From: Lacibacter sp. H375
GTDB taxonomy: Bacteria > Bacteroidota > Bacteroidia > Chitinophagales > Chitinophagaceae
Direction of reading: 5' to 3'
NCBI RefSeq assembly: GCF_037892425.1
Contig: NZ_JBBKTT010000001.1
Location: forward strand, 1,364,001-1,428,000
DNA length: 64,000 nt
Shown: piece by piece, positions 21,213-63,822 of the stretch
Position numbering within the stretch: position 1 is the first letter of the stretch
How the letters are laid out: each line of letters begins with the position of its first letter
The notes under the pieces: generated by a model
Database searches by the model: none
The model's input: only the letters and a program-made list of their open reading frames with translations
What the model was told of the DNA's origin: nothing
Made by a program: the position numbers and the translations under genes

Positions 21213-21608
21213 CTAGACTATTTCTTCACGGCCTTTATTGTTGAAGACACGGTGGATTCCATCTTTCATAAGGGGCACTTTGAAATTAAGAAGCAAACCA
21301 TGTTTCAGATTTGTCAGCACCAGATGTGTTTGTAATTGATTGAAGTAAACAGGAGGAAGTGGATTTACAGATTTTAATTCAACAATTAATTTATCTTCAA
21401 TTAACAGGTCAAGTTTATACGCATTCTTTAAATATAAATTCTCATATTCAACAGGCAATAACAGTTGACGCTCTACTTTTACGTTAGCTTGAATTAATTC
21501 ATAATAGAGAATTTCTTCATAAACTTTTTCAAAGCAACCGGGACCGATGCGTGTGTGCATTTTAATACATAGGTTAATCACGAGGTTAGTAAGATCATCG
21601 ATATGCAT
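21213..21608 (-). CDS. GxxExxY protein
   Basis: The 131-residue protein carries the name-giving motif Gly24-x-x-Glu27-x-x-Tyr30 (GCFEKVY) and a PD-(D/E)xK-like core: Asp67 (KLDLLI), then Glu77-x-Lys79 (VELKSV). The fold suggests a nuclease relative, but no activity is established that I know of. The gene occupies almost all the space between two inverted copies of a CTAAGAG polypurine repeat, one merged with the stop codon of the cytochrome gene, the other ending at the stop codon of the transporter gene. This makes it look like a small inserted cassette. The start is ATG 21608 (MHIDDLTNLV). Confidence 0.88.
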   Translation of the reverse strand: MHIDDLTNLVINLCIKMHTRIGPGCFEKVYEEILYYELIQANVKVERQLLLPVEYENLYLKNAYKLDLLIEDKLIVELKSVNPLPPVYFNQLQTHLVLTNLKHGLLLNFKVPLMKDGIHRVFNNKGREEIV

Positions 21609-59541: not shown

Positions 59542-61479
59542 TTACTTACTGCCTAATTTTTGATAATTCGCAAAGATGGTTTTGAGATCGTAAACGGCTT
59601 CATACTCCCGGGCATACCATTCGTCGGCCAATAAAAGACCCTCTTCTTTCAGGTGTGATAAATGATGGGGTTGCCCGGCAGGTCCTAATACAGATGCAGG
59701 AATTGAAGGCAGATGTTTACGTGAAGTTGAAAAACCAACCCATGTTTTTCGACCAGTGAAGACAGCAACGCTCTGTTGCAATAAACCCAATGCATGTCTG
59801 TTGATGATAAAATGCAATGGAAAGCTGAGTAAAAAGAGTGCTGATGTACTCACATCGATCAGTCGTTTCAAACGAAGATTTACTTCTTCACTCAACTGCA
59901 GTTTCTCCCGATGTAAAACTTCACCTGCTTCATTCTTTGAATCGCTGCCGATAATGCTTTCACTATGTTGAGCATGTAAACGCAATTTTACACGTTTGCC
60001 CGTTTGCTCATATAGAGTAATGATCTGTGAGAAGGAAAGGTCTTTGCTTTGGCACAGGATCAATTCATTCGCCGGCGTGTTTTGCAAAAGTTGTTGCAGT
60101 TCATCGACACGGCCAAGTGATTTTGGTTCGTTCAACGGACTTACAAATCCCTGTATAGTTTGACTACGACCATGATGGTGTAAGAGGTTGTTTACTTTTA
60201 TCAAATCGGCTTCAGTGCCTGCCACCAAAGAAAAATAATCATCTTCATCAATCGCTTTCTCCAGTATATCTGCATATAACAAAATCCTTCGCCATAAGTA
60301 AAGGAAAAAGTAACTGTACATTGCCCCAAGTAATACAAGACCTCTTGAAAAACGATATTCTTCAGGCAATAATGAATAAACAGCCAGAATAATAAGAATG
60401 GAAACCAAGGATGATTGCCACAGATTTTTATAGCGGAACTTTTGCTCGTATAAACCAGTGTAATAACTCACCAGCAAAAACAGGAACGAAAAAACGACAA
60501 ACGAGATCCACAACAATTTATTCATGTAAACGATCTCTGGTCTTATATAACTTGTCCATACAAATTTTGCAAGCATGTAACTGAAGAAGATGAGCACGGC
60601 ATCGAGTAAAGGCAAACCAACACGCTGTATAAAACGCTTCATCAAACTCATTAGAGCTCTTACCCAAATAGCTGCATTGATCAGTGAGCTGAAAACACCT
60701 GCACGTGATGAGGAATAATGCTTGCGCACAAACAAACTCATAGCATCGTAAAACATCCGTACATAATTCACGGATGATTTTTTTGTGCTTTCACCTTTGA
60801 AGTGAAGAATGGAACGATCACTGAAATAATAATTCTTAAATCCAAGCTTTTGTATGCGGTAACTAAGGTCCACATCTTCGCCATACATAAAAAAACTTTC
60901 ATCGAAACCGCCTGTTTGCGCAAGGACATCTTTTCTGATCATCATGAAAGCTCCTGCCAATACATCTACTGCGTGGTTCTTATGCTCATCAAGATAGCCA
61001 AGATGATAACGGCCAAATGTTTTTGAATGTGGGAAAAGGAATGACAAACCGCTCAGCTTATAGAATGAGGTAAGTGGCGATGGGAATGACCGTTTGCTTT
61101 CCGGCAAAAACTTTCCGCTGCCATCAAGCATTCGGATGCCGATAGCACCTGCATCGGGTGTTTGCTGAAAAAAATTGAAGCAGGCAGTAAAACAATCTTC
61201 CGGAACAACAGTATCGGGGTTCAGGAACAGTACAAAATCGCCACTTGCCTGTTTAAGTGCCTGGTTACAGGCTTTGCCAAAACCAATATTCTCTTTATTC
61301 CATGCAAAATGAATGTTCGTGAACTTTGGTTCGAGGTATTCACGGCTACCATCAGACGAAGCATTATCAACCACAAACGCTTCCGCATCTATCCCCTCGA
61401 CAGCCTTTTGCACCGACAGCAAGCATTGCTCCAGGAAAAACTTCACATTATAATTGACGATGATAACCGAAAGCTGCAT
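59542..61479 (-). CDS. Glycosyltransferase family 2 fused to degenerate sugar-phosphate transferase
   Basis: The 645-residue protein begins with a complete GT2 domain (1-260): LSVIIVNYNVKFFLEQCLLS, VVDNASSDGSREYL, and NPDTVVP as the nucleotide-metal site; the fold resembles WbbL-type rhamnosyltransferases. Four hydrophobic helices follow (about 285-400), then a nucleotide-binding-like domain (about 415-510), then a C-terminal segment LRLKRLIDVSTSALFLLSFPL that looks like the membrane helix of polyprenyl-phosphate sugar transferases (WbaP/WcaJ), with the end YDLKTIFANYQKLG. The Asp-Glu catalytic pair and the KFRSM motif of that family are missing, so the second half is probably inactive as a transferase. 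A role in lipopolysaccharide or capsule assembly is likely. Confidence 0.85.
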   Translation of the reverse strand: MQLSVIIVNYNVKFFLEQCLLSVQKAVEGIDAEAFVVDNASSDGSREYLEPKFTNIHFAWNKENIGFGKACNQALKQASGDFVLFLNPDTVVPEDCFTACFNFFQQTPDAGAIGIRMLDGSGKFLPESKRSFPSPLTSFYKLSGLSFLFPHSKTFGRYHLGYLDEHKNHAVDVLAGAFMMIRKDVLAQTGGFDESFFMYGEDVDLSYRIQKLGFKNYYFSDRSILHFKGESTKKSSVNYVRMFYDAMSLFVRKHYSSSRAGVFSSLINAAIWVRALMSLMKRFIQRVGLPLLDAVLIFFSYMLAKFVWTSYIRPEIVYMNKLLWISFVVFSFLFLLVSYYTGLYEQKFRYKNLWQSSLVSILIILAVYSLLPEEYRFSRGLVLLGAMYSYFFLYLWRRILLYADILEKAIDEDDYFSLVAGTEADLIKVNNLLHHHGRSQTIQGFVSPLNEPKSLGRVDELQQLLQNTPANELILCQSKDLSFSQIITLYEQTGKRVKLRLHAQHSESIIGSDSKNEAGEVLHREKLQLSEEVNLRLKRLIDVSTSALFLLSFPLHFIINRHALGLLQQSVAVFTGRKTWVGFSTSRKHLPSIPASVLGPAGQPHHLSHLKEEGLLLADEWYAREYEAVYDLKTIFANYQKLGSK

Positions 61480-61490
61480 AGGCTGTAAAA

Positions 61491-61530
61491 GCTCAAATCT
61501 AAAATCTTAAATCTGCAATCTCAAATCTGT
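61491..61530 (+). repeat. Intergenic repeat, CTCAAATCTAAAATCTTAAATC type
   Basis: CTCAAATCTAAAATCTTAAA followed by TCTGCAATCTCAAATCTG consists of near-identical 7-9 base units and resembles the GATTTATGATTTG family read on the other strand. It lies in the 72-base gap between divergent genes. Confidence 0.5.
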
Positions 61531-61540
61531 GTTGCGGGGT

Positions 61541-61548
61541 TATCTTTG
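61541..61548 (+). promoter_or_regulatory. Promoter -7 box of the inositol monophosphatase gene
   Basis: TATCTTTG matches TAnnTTTG and ends 3 bases before the ATG at 61552, implying a leaderless mRNA. Confidence 0.5.
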
Positions 61549-61551
61549 CGC

Positions 61552-62331
61552 ATGCTTAAACAAACCCTAATTGCTGCTACCAAGGCAGGCGCAGAACAAC
61601 TGACGCATTTTTTTCATGGTGATTTTATTGTTCATAACAAGGAAGGCGTGAACAATCTTGTAACGGAAGCTGATCATGCAGCGGAGAAAGCCATTTTTGA
61701 AGTCATAAAGAAAGAATTTCCTGATCATTATATTTTAAGTGAAGAAGCGGGAGAGATGGCACAGGATTCAAATTACAAATGGATCATCGACCCGATCGAT
61801 GGTACAGTGAATTTTGCAAATGGCATCCCTATATGCTGTGTAAGTATCGGTATTGAGAAAGATGGGAAGATGATAATGGGAGCTGTGTTCAATCCGCTCA
61901 TGAATGAATTCTTTTTTGCTGAACGTGGTGAAGGTGCATATTTGAATGATAAACCCATTCATGTGAGTGAACAGAGCGAATTGATCAAAGCATGTATGGT
62001 TACGGGTTTCCCCTATACTTATCTTGATATGCCGAACGGTCCATTGCAGGTGTTTGAACGTTTTATTCGCAAGGGTATTCCTGTTCGTCGCTTAGGTAGT
62101 GCCGCAATTGACCTGTGTTGGGTGGCTGCTGGTCGCTTTGATGGCTTTTATGAACACAAGTTAAATGCATGGGATAGCGCAGCTGGTTTTCTGTTGGTAG
62201 AAGAAGCAGGCGGTAAGGTTACCGATTTTAAAGGCGATCATTATTCACCTTATCAACCACATATTGTTGCAACCAACGGAAAAATTCATGATGATCTGGT
62301 GGAAGTGATTAATGACAGGAAGAAACTATAA
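61552..62331 (+). CDS. Inositol monophosphatase family protein
   Basis: The 259-residue protein has the Mg2+-dependent phosphatase motifs of the IMPase family: Glu-Glu in SEEAGE (near 63-68), IDPIDGTVNFANGIP (near 77-91) and WDSAAGFLLVEEAGG (near 206-220), with GSAAIDLCWVAAGRFDGFYE between. It may act as inositol-1-phosphatase, as fructose-1,6-bisphosphatase, or as SuhB in rRNA transcription; sequence alone does not decide. ATG 61552 is used because the -7 promoter box overlaps the TTG at 61546. No terminator is visible before the repeat-framed four-helix-bundle gene. Confidence 0.92.
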   Translation: MLKQTLIAATKAGAEQLTHFFHGDFIVHNKEGVNNLVTEADHAAEKAIFEVIKKEFPDHYILSEEAGEMAQDSNYKWIIDPIDGTVNFANGIPICCVSIGIEKDGKMIMGAVFNPLMNEFFFAERGEGAYLNDKPIHVSEQSELIKACMVTGFPYTYLDMPNGPLQVFERFIRKGIPVRRLGSAAIDLCWVAAGRFDGFYEHKLNAWDSAAGFLLVEEAGGKVTDFKGDHYSPYQPHIVATNGKIHDDLVEVINDRKKL

Positions 62332-62362
62332 CATGTACGATGTTCGTTGTACGATGTACATG
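62332..62362. repeat. Left flank of the four-helix-bundle cassette
   Basis: CATGTAC (62332-62338) and GTACATG (62356-62362) are inverted; GTACGATGT occurs twice in tandem (62335 and 62349). GTACGATGTAC at 62349-62359 is the exact inverse of 62752-62762 downstream of the gene. Confidence 0.65.
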
Positions 62363-62399
62363 GGCGTGTTATTTTTGAAACATCTTAATTTGCTGACAT

Positions 62400-62744
62400 A
62401 TGGATGCCGAAGAAATGAAAAGGCGAACAAAAATGTTTGCCATTAACGTTGCAAGACTAACACAAAAAATACCTGATAGCCCAATTAACAGGGCGTATAA
62501 AAACCAGATCATTCGTTCTTCAAGCTCAGTAGGTGCAAATTACCGGGCAGCAAGGAGAGCGAAATCGAAACCCGATTTTATTAATAAACTAAAAATAGTT
62601 GAAGAAGAATTGGATGAAAGCTTGTTCTTTTTAGAGTTATTGCAAGAGTTTAACAAAGATTTTGAAAAAGAAATAACACAGCACTTTCACGAAGGAGAAA
62701 CTTTATTAAAGATTATTGTTAGCTCGATTGTGTCGTCCCGTTGA
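62400..62744 (+). CDS. Four helix bundle protein (23S rRNA IVS / S23 family)
   Basis: The 114-residue protein fits the four-helix-bundle family first noticed in the intervening sequences of 23S rRNA genes: RRTKMFAINVARLTQKIPDSPINRAYKNQIIRSSSSVGANYRAARRAKSKPDFINKLKIVEEELDES. The strongly conserved SSSVGANYREA-like turn is near residues 41-51. The basic first half suggests RNA or DNA contact; relatives include the Avd accessory protein of diversity-generating retroelements, but no reverse transcriptase or rRNA gene is here. Inverted 11-base repeats flank the gene exactly, marking it as a small inserted cassette between the phosphatase gene and thiL. Confidence 0.88.
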   Translation: MDAEEMKRRTKMFAINVARLTQKIPDSPINRAYKNQIIRSSSSVGANYRAARRAKSKPDFINKLKIVEEELDESLFFLELLQEFNKDFEKEITQHFHEGETLLKIIVSSIVSSR

Positions 62745-62751
62745 GAGAGGC

Positions 62752-62774
62752 GTACATCGTACATCTAACATCAA
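62752..62774. repeat. Right flank of the four-helix-bundle cassette
   Basis: GTACATCGTACATCTAACATC follows the gene stop by 8 bases. Its first 11 bases mirror 62349-62359. Confidence 0.65.
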
Positions 62775-62787
62775 ACATTCTAAAATT

Positions 62788-63822
62788 ATGAGCGAAGAAC
62801 GTACAGAACTATCCTCCCTTGGTGAATTTGGTCTTATCGATCATCTCACAAAAAATATTGAGCATCAGAATGCATCAACAATTCTTGGCGTGGGAGATGA
62901 TGCAGCAGTGATCGATCATTTCGGAAAACAGACTGTTGTTACAACTGATCTGTTGATCGAGGGTGTGCATTTTGATCTGATGTATACACCACTTAAACAC
63001 CTTGGTTATAAAAGTGTGGTGGTAAATGTGAGTGATATTTATGCTATGAATGCAACACCAACACAGATCACTTTAAGCTTGGCTGTGAGCAATCGTTTCA
63101 GTCTTGAAGCGTTAGAAGAATTTTATGATGGTGTATATGTGGCTTGCGAAGAATATGGTGTTGATCTGGTTGGCGGCGATACCACTTCTACTACCAAAGG
63201 TTTTGTAATAAGTGTAACAGCTATTGGAGAGGTGGCGCCTGATAAATTTGTAAAACGGAGCACAGCAAAACCAAACGATCTGATATGTGTAACCGGTTAT
63301 CTTGGTGGCGCATATCTTGGCTTGTTATTACTTGAAAGGGAGAAGAAAATTTTTCTTGAAACAAAAGGAGTACAACCTGATCTGGAGAACAGGGATTATA
63401 TCGTTGGCCGATTACTGAAACCAGAAGCGAGAAAAGATATCATCGATTTTTTAGAGAAGGAGAAAATTGTCCCAACGGCAATGATGGATATCAGCGATGG
63501 ACTCAGCAGTGAAATATTACACATCTGCAAACAAAGCGAAGTGGGTGCATTGATCTACGAAGACAAGATACCTGTACATCCGGATGCAAAGGAGTTTGCG
63601 TATAAATTAGAATTGGATCCAACTGCTTGTGCATTGAGTGGAGGTGAAGATTATGAACTGGTCTTTACCATTGCACAAAGTGATTATGATAAGATAAAAG
63701 ATGTGAACGGCATCAGGATCGTAGGGCATATTACAACAGCTGCAGAAGGTGCTCACATCATAACAAGAGGTGGCAATAAGCATCAGCTGACAGCTCAGGG
63801 CTGGAATGCATTTGGTAAATAG
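62788..63822 (+). CDS. thiL: Thiamine-phosphate kinase
   Basis: The 344-residue enzyme phosphorylates thiamine monophosphate to the active cofactor thiamine diphosphate. AIR-synthase-like N-terminal motifs are GVGDDAAVIDH (near 33-43), TTDLLIEGVHFDL and SDIYAMNATPTQITLSLAV (near 86-104); VGGDTTSTTKGFVISVTAIG and the C-terminal ALSGGEDYELVFTI are typical of ThiL. ATG 62788 is used because the longer frame runs through the cassette repeat. The S41-type lipoprotein gene follows 4 bases after its stop, so the two are cotranscribed. No thiamine riboswitch is visible. Confidence 0.95.
   Translation: MSEERTELSSLGEFGLIDHLTKNIEHQNASTILGVGDDAAVIDHFGKQTVVTTDLLIEGVHFDLMYTPLKHLGYKSVVVNVSDIYAMNATPTQITLSLAVSNRFSLEALEEFYDGVYVACEEYGVDLVGGDTTSTTKGFVISVTAIGEVAPDKFVKRSTAKPNDLICVTGYLGGAYLGLLLLEREKKIFLETKGVQPDLENRDYIVGRLLKPEARKDIIDFLEKEKIVPTAMMDISDGLSSEILHICKQSEVGALIYEDKIPVHPDAKEFAYKLELDPTACALSGGEDYELVFTIAQSDYDKIKDVNGIRIVGHITTAAEGAHIITRGGNKHQLTAQGWNAFGK

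Follow-up and report, generated by a model that had tools for sequence, protein, structure and literature searches.

Inverted heptanucleotide arrays around a four-helix-bundle gene between inositol monophosphatase and thiL, and around its relatives in other genomes

Introduction

Small genes of the S23p family are known from the intervening sequences (IVSs) of 23S rRNA in Leptospira and Coxiella, where one small gene lies within inverted terminal repeats and no transposase is present. The IVS of Coxiella, with a terminal stem of 28 bp, is a substrate of RNase III in vitro (PMC4990558, accessible part). A related fold is that of Avd (4dwl), a protein of diversity-generating retroelements. In REPIN/RAYT systems, a gene for a Y1 transposase has inverted short repeats around it, and gene-less hairpin copies lie elsewhere in the genome. 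Orphan heptanucleotide repeats have also been described, namely GGGAATC in Xanthomonas, GGGGA(T/C)T in Nostoc and TAACTGA in Beggiatoaceae. The cyanobacterial STRR are another heptanucleotide repeat class. The Xanthomonas heptamers include 70-75 convergent pairs (PMC4692102, accessible part), and slippage has been proposed as the origin of bacterial heptamers (PMC4692102, PMC4679880, accessible parts). The accessible text of these two papers holds no mention of S23, of a four-helix protein or of an intervening sequence; nor did we find a link between heptamers and IVP genes in the accessible parts of PMC4990558, PMC11270868, PMC4679880, PMC4692102 and PMC10053308, a set that most of the subscription literature, being beyond reach, does not enter.

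IVP genes are thus far annotated in many genomes without a function, and intergenic heptamers are described without a maker. Here we describe an IVP gene that lies in an operon between inverted arrays of a heptanucleotide, and compare it with IVP genes of the same genome, of its relatives and of other phyla.

Results

The cassette between IMPase and thiL

The window, that is, the whole stretch of 64,000 nucleotides analysed, carries the IVP gene after the stop codon of the inositol monophosphatase (IMPase) gene (62329-62331) and before the thiL start (Table 1); the names IMPase and thiL are those of an earlier note on this DNA, given without a family search. That note had placed the gene in the S23/IVS family, and the profiles agree: the product scores 47.2 bits against PF05635 (cut-off 33.8) and 70.5 against TIGR02436 (cut-off 24). 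It had also reported perfect inverted repeats of 11 bases around the gene, which we confirm and extend. The 11-mer GTACGATGTAC at 62349-62359 (+) has its exact inverse at 62752-62762, and the exact match in fact spans 12 nt (62348-62359 / 62752-62763), a length found in 3 of 2000 shuffles of both intergenic flanks. The full arms align over 27 columns with a score of 34, which was reached by none of 5000 dinucleotide-preserving shuffles of the intergenic flanks (68 + 42 nt). The sole other near match to the 11-mer in the window, with one mismatch, lies at 62335-62345, within the upstream arm itself. A feature absent from the earlier note is the heptad makeup of the arms, each of which consists of about four units of the 7-nt word (A/T)TGTACG.

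Table 1. Positions in the window of the cassette, its neighbours and two related elements
Feature	Position	Strand	Remarks
Upstream arm	62333..62359	+	ATGTACG ATGTTCG TTGTACG ATGTAC, degenerate heptad x4
Downstream arm	62752..62778	-	Reverse complement = ATGTTTG ATGTTAG ATGTACG ATGTAC
IVP gene, 114 aa four-helix bundle	62400..62744	+	PF05635 / TIGR02436
IMPase ORF as listed, operon neighbour 5'	61546..62331	+	Likely ATG 61552
thiL, 344 aa, operon neighbour 3'	62788..63822	+	ORF list
Solo heptad array, AAATCTN word, gene-less, possible relic	61488..61528		Between divergent glycosyltransferase-like gene and IMPase
GxxExxY (PF13366) match of sister cassette (L008), arms of other design	21246..21596	-	Profile match

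The AlphaFold model of the protein has four helices (pLDDT 89.5). Its closest solved folds are 2rld and 2gsc (TM 0.68-0.75), the latter being the IVP of Xanthomonas campestris, followed by Avd 4dwl (TM 0.58-0.62). The crystals of 2rld and 2gsc have five chains each.

Private arms with a period of seven

The genome that holds the window (G000) has five PF05635 and three PF13366 (GxxExxY) matches, and all eight of these genes are framed by a private arm pair. When each upstream flank was compared with each reverse-complemented downstream flank in an 8 x 8 table, the eight matched pairs scored 25-57, all above the 56 mismatched pairs (maximum 22). PF05635 is present in 50 of the 59 genomes searched. 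We sampled 30 loci and 60 more among the matches listed, mostly from the same genus, plus the genome's own loci and the thiL loci, which gave 108 IVP ORFs in 104 loci; the 104 unique cassettes with enough flank were kept. Matched arms reach a score of at least 24 in 90 of these 104, versus 6.2% of mismatched pairs, and the other 14 cassettes of this genome and its relatives lack clear arms by score. The arms of IVP genes are tandem units with a period of exactly 7 nt: self-identity is 0.644 at lag 7, 0.611 at lag 14 and 0.573 at lag 21, but only about 0.21-0.34 for the other lags (91 cassettes with arms of at least 18 nt), and in 78 of the 91 no lag from 4 to 12 does better than 7. The median array has about 4.5 heptads per arm, which, set beside the five protomers of the solved structures, invites the speculation of one heptad per protomer. 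The arms also have a polarity, the 5' arm (gene strand) being richer in G than in C in 87/97 cassettes.

The same organisation is evident far beyond the genus. A scan of genome contigs yielded 390 loci, of which the best 80 were taken; they come from Bacteroidota, Desulfobacterota, Nitrospinota, Chloroflexi, Omnitrophota, candidate phyla and others, and 74 had enough flank (six were skipped). Among these best-ranked loci, arms score at least 24 in 66 of 74 cassettes, with eight lacking clear arms; identity is 0.58 and 0.55 at lags 7 and 14, and the 5' arm has more G than C in 64/66. Because some cassettes have words in common, 19% of mismatched pairs in this sample also reach 24. Out of 52 plasmid records with a match, we opened eight cyanobacterial IVP loci and found heptad arms at six, and none at the other two. 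Two of the six armed cassettes (L365, L369) lie between cas6 and cas4. Four cassettes from Desulfobacterota-type MAGs (L256, L266, L270, L275) have, besides the heptad arms, a second, outer inverted repeat that is GGTTCTTCTCCAATTTAGTTGG-like.

The heptad word and the protein clade

Sequence comparisons indicate that the word goes with the clade of the protein, even where sites are unrelated and phyla differ. A common word is seen in no more than 2% of IVP pairs from different sites that are less than 0.55 identical; the proportion is 62% for pairs 0.60-0.70 identical (n = 86) and 69% for pairs at least 0.70 identical (n = 13), and sharing among similar IVPs at different sites resembles that at shared sites. 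With words taken from lag-7 segments, the Mantel correlation between word and protein is 0.172, the maximum of 300 permutations being 0.148. Many of the word-sharing pairs involve L207 or L210, and we therefore kept a single row for each site and cluster. In the resulting ten clusters, the 17 within-cluster pairs average 0.536, versus 0.413 for 2494 between-cluster pairs; nine clusters lie above the between-cluster median and four above its 95th percentile. This result was obtained with a strict definition of "same site", a looser rule having merged nearly all loci into three groups with no usable pairs. When the word was measured over the whole aligned arm, almost no link to the protein was seen (Mantel r 0.06-0.09), since the phase was obscured by gaps in the arms and by outer hairpins, an effect clearest in the Desulfobacterota cassettes.

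The plasmid cassettes illustrate the trend. Two Nostocaceae plasmid IVPs (L366, L370) have the word AGAAGTCAGGAGTCAG, and their nearest non-cyanobacterial proteins, at 68-72%, are three from the genus studied here (L073, L074, L059) and one from Thermodesulfobacteriota (L255), with words AGAAG..AG. Similarly, L365 (word TTAGCTT) is nearest, at 58%, to L228 from an Anaerolinea MAG (TTAGCCA). The word of the Nostoc plasmid IVP, AGAAGTCAGG, differs from the ATGTACG of the thiL-locus IVP. The arms that the earlier note looked for at orthologous gene-bearing loci are present, but in words that differ between loci; and its concern that the flanks might be an unrelated abundant repeat is half borne out, since the repeat class of the arms is indeed abundant, yet tied to the IVP family.

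Word recognition versus RNA pairing

The earlier note thought it conceivable that a structured RNA carries the gene. In its fullest form, this would be an mRNA counterpart of the 23S rRNA IVS: the arms would pair in the operon transcript, RNase III would cut the stem, and the gene-bearing loop would be removed. The cutting of the Coxiella IVS by RNase III in vitro (PMC4990558, accessible part) offers a precedent, the segment folds as RNA with a z of -4.86 versus shuffles and with its arms paired, and the cassettes are placed in sense: both neighbouring genes are on the strand of the IVP gene in 91 of the 101 cassettes with both neighbours identified, versus 291 of 647 control triples of ORFs in 800 kb of G000. 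But the arms do not vary as a conserved stem would. Their mismatches in 162 cassettes comprise 170 wobble-compatible versus 195 mirror changes, which is no bias towards G.U wobble, and Rfam has no match in 61400-63200. In the 117 cassettes with clear heptads, the downstream arm varies most at the very heptad phase where the upstream arm does (0.646 versus 0.79-0.90), and it is there that mismatches between the arms gather, uncompensated (0.436 versus 0.10-0.22 elsewhere). Mismatches at one shared variable position point to a recognised word with one free position. Moreover, an RNA stem requires neither a 7-nt period nor a link between word and clade. Wobble asymmetry and mismatch phase thus give no support to RNA pairing as the constraint on the arms, and we regard the mRNA IVS as unlikely.

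The order of heptads is slightly more alike between the two arms than when shuffled (6.36 versus 6.01; n = 34), and some pairing or copying effect between the arms may be responsible. This measure replaced a comparison of in-register with off-register pairing, which was set aside because selecting the best core had biased it. Overall, the arms seem to be held by sequence recognition rather than by RNA pairing, with RNA processing as a possible consequence of them.

GxxExxY cassettes

The earlier note had ascribed the same design to the GxxExxY cassette of the window (Table 1). This is correct as regards one small gene, one arm pair and the lack of a transposase; that the arms of the two cassettes differ in period is a point absent from the note. 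We took 30 of the 31 GxxExxY loci of the genus, of which 29 were readable, and found matched arms in 20; these have no 7-nt period (0.256 at lag 7, 0.383 at lag 8) and are of CACAGAG type, unlike the heptads of IVP arms. The two kinds of cassette are alike in their private inverted arms, in their similar sites and in their co-occurrence across genomes. GxxExxY is found in 43 of the 50 IVP-bearing genomes and in none of the nine without IVP (59 relatives, 14 of them of one genus, with no correction for phylogeny), which suggests that IVP and GxxExxY have hosts or a helper in common.

A moxR/vWA-like site (named by eye) holds a GxxExxY cassette in G000 and G013 (L169, L171). The upstream arm there inverts a stretch of host sequence that includes the start codon of the next gene, and the same host sequence is present in the cassette-less G003 and G009 (L170, L173), which indicates that at least some arms arose by inverse copying of the flank. 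At this site G012 (L174) has a different hairpin, CCCCCTCCAACCTCCCC / GGAGAGGGAGAAGGAGGG, where its relatives have GxxExxY cassettes. One further GxxExxY copy (L178) has an in-frame TAA, its cassette decaying with the arms kept.

Hairpins and arrays without a gene

Heptad arrays also occur on their own. The nrdB-nrdA site (named by eye) holds an IVP cassette in G000 but, in four relatives (L184-L187), a gene-less heptad hairpin, whose arms match each other and whose words vary by species. We counted lag-7 arrays with a score of at least 13 in five genomes. G000 has 13 and 10 in two 400-kb blocks (32.5 and 25 per Mb), and G017, which has 14 IVPs, has 22 in 400 kb (55 per Mb); of the genomes without IVP, G031 has one in 400 kb (2.5 per Mb), and G028 and G027 have none in 200 kb each. 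Lags 4-6 and 8-13 give 0-5 arrays each in every set. Seven of 30 solo arrays of G000 resemble the words of its own IVPs (1.4 expected). The overall match to the genome's own five words is weak, with a mean of 0.554 versus a permuted-column mean of 0.519 (maximum of 200, 0.564), and in 10.5% of draws random words of other cassettes score as high. The words that match best belong mostly to IVPs from other members of the genus. The solo array next to IMPase (Table 1) has no good partner arm within 2 kb.

Several arrays were noted besides. A weak one at 2735-2767 of the window, GATGTCTGATTTCTGATGTAGGATTTATGATTT, has a word like that of the nrdB-nrdA cassette (L003). Others lie in frame within genes on contig C1 of G000, at 97138-97167 (L133), 4570763-4570849 (L157), 4787106-4787135 (L168) and 394806-394837 (L148), the host genes being aroA-, hutU-, rsmB- and polysaccharide-deacetylase-like (names by eye). 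They encode peptides such as THHSPL, and one of them forms a full heptad hairpin 29 codons long.

Such arrays might be passive repeats, with polymerase slippage making the 7-nt units, template switching at quasi-palindromes making the arms alike, and the IVP a bystander. Quasi-palindrome mutagenesis is a process in which template switching makes arms alike, and the inverse host copy at the moxR/vWA-like site argues that fold-back copying can make arms; slippage, as noted above, has been put forward for bacterial heptamers (PMC4692102, PMC4679880, accessible parts). We nevertheless consider passive origin improbable: it accounts neither for the near absence of arrays from the three IVP-less relatives nor for words that track the protein clade, and the strict period of seven in IVP but not in GxxExxY arms, as well as the fixed strand polarity, stand against it.

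Exchange and persistence at one site

Of the 56 genomes in which thiL had a match, we read the IMPase-thiL site in 30. Within the genus, an IVP is present in 8 of 12 loci, with three arm types, and absent from L016, L017 and L021, L018 being the twelfth; outside the genus, one of 18 loci (L037) has an IVP, and another, L032, a GTACACC array with no gene. Three pairs at this site (L009/L010, L011/L012, L015/L014) have a flank dS of 0.6-0.9, yet their IVPs are only 55% identical and their arms differ. In L009/L010 the flanking DNA is 0.86-0.90 identical up to the stop codon and again from the start codon on, and in L012 an older upstream arm was left beside the new cassette. Whole cassettes thus appear to have been exchanged as units at one site, as judged from flank dS, inspection and, for one pair, locus-wide DNA identity, with the thiL values of L015 excluded. 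Within one type, the IVP gene is under purifying selection (L010/L015: dN 0.03, dS 1.9).

Movement between sites has left fewer traces. In the first sample, no cassette pair at unrelated sites is more than 75% alike (4262 pairs), which suggests that recent jumps are rare; L256 and L275, from the wider sample, have IVPs 91% identical and unrelated flanks. In the IVP tree, the nine thiL-site rows cluster (two changes, with one long-branch intruder, L005), pointing to a site-faithful lineage and counting against frequent jumping. Comparison by eye with the empty sites of L016 and L017, whose flanks are too diverged, revealed no recognisable target-site duplication. Most of the turnover is at one site, and ordinary homologous exchange could be its source. 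That the IVP is a domesticated, immobile operon regulator, which binds the arms as DNA or RNA and tunes the neighbouring genes, would suit the purifying selection within a type and the long stay at one site, but is very improbable with neighbours that vary by cassette, three genus loci (L016, L017, L021) without a cassette at the same site, and gene-less hairpins that take the cassette's place.

Discussion

The reading that we favour, with moderate confidence, is that of a minimal mobile cassette without a transposase, made up of an IVP gene within two inverted arrays of a degenerate heptad, the IVP reading its own word. DNA binding by the IVP and movement of the cassette are what we infer from the patterns above. 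In both arms, an IVP oligomer would bind double-stranded DNA at its own heptad; the ends would thereby be paired, and through this pairing the unit could be moved, replaced or collapsed by the recombination or replication of the host. Placed after one gene's stop codon and before the following start, the unit would cost the host little and be transcribed from the operon promoter. Hairpins without a gene, like the solo arrays, would be either relics or non-autonomous copies.

A broader proposal, which we put forward tentatively and hold with somewhat less than even confidence, is that IVPs in general read a 7-nt DNA word specific to their clade and form the core of widespread transposase-free mobile elements, each with its own address written as two inverted arrays. 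Gene-less arrays, some inside coding genes and perhaps including the orphan heptamers of Xanthomonas and Nostoc, would be products of these elements, and GxxExxY would be a second family with the same plan and another word geometry. If this were true, the heptamers would gain a testable maker, together with a protein-to-word code for which many natural pairs exist; a possible route for the spread of DNA without a transposase would come into view; and the 23S rRNA IVS would become a special case.

Among the systems already described, diversity-generating retroelements have in Avd a protein of related fold, but PF00078 (reverse transcriptase) has no match in G000, G010 or G011, the last with 16 IVPs, and on that ground we reject an RT-dependent, Avd-like mechanism for G000. 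REPIN/RAYT elements resemble the IVP cassette in having inverted repeats round a gene and gene-less hairpins. They differ in the protein, which here is a four-helix bundle, with only PF05635 and four-helix NCBIfam matches and no Y1 (HUH) transposase between the repeats, and in the arms, which here are tandem heptads varying by cassette. The orphan heptamers share with the IVP arrays the 7-nt period, the intergenic location and a frequent position just past a stop codon, but the IVP arrays bracket IVP genes and their words track the protein. With the 23S rRNA IVSs, the IMPase-thiL cassette has in common the S23p family and the plan of a single gene between inverted ends with no transposase. The IVSs lie inside the 23S rRNA gene, whereas the IMPase-thiL cassette lies between protein genes of an operon; and in its arms, unlike those of the 23S rRNA IVSs, a pairing constraint is not apparent, the arms being heptad arrays whose word is tied to the protein clade.
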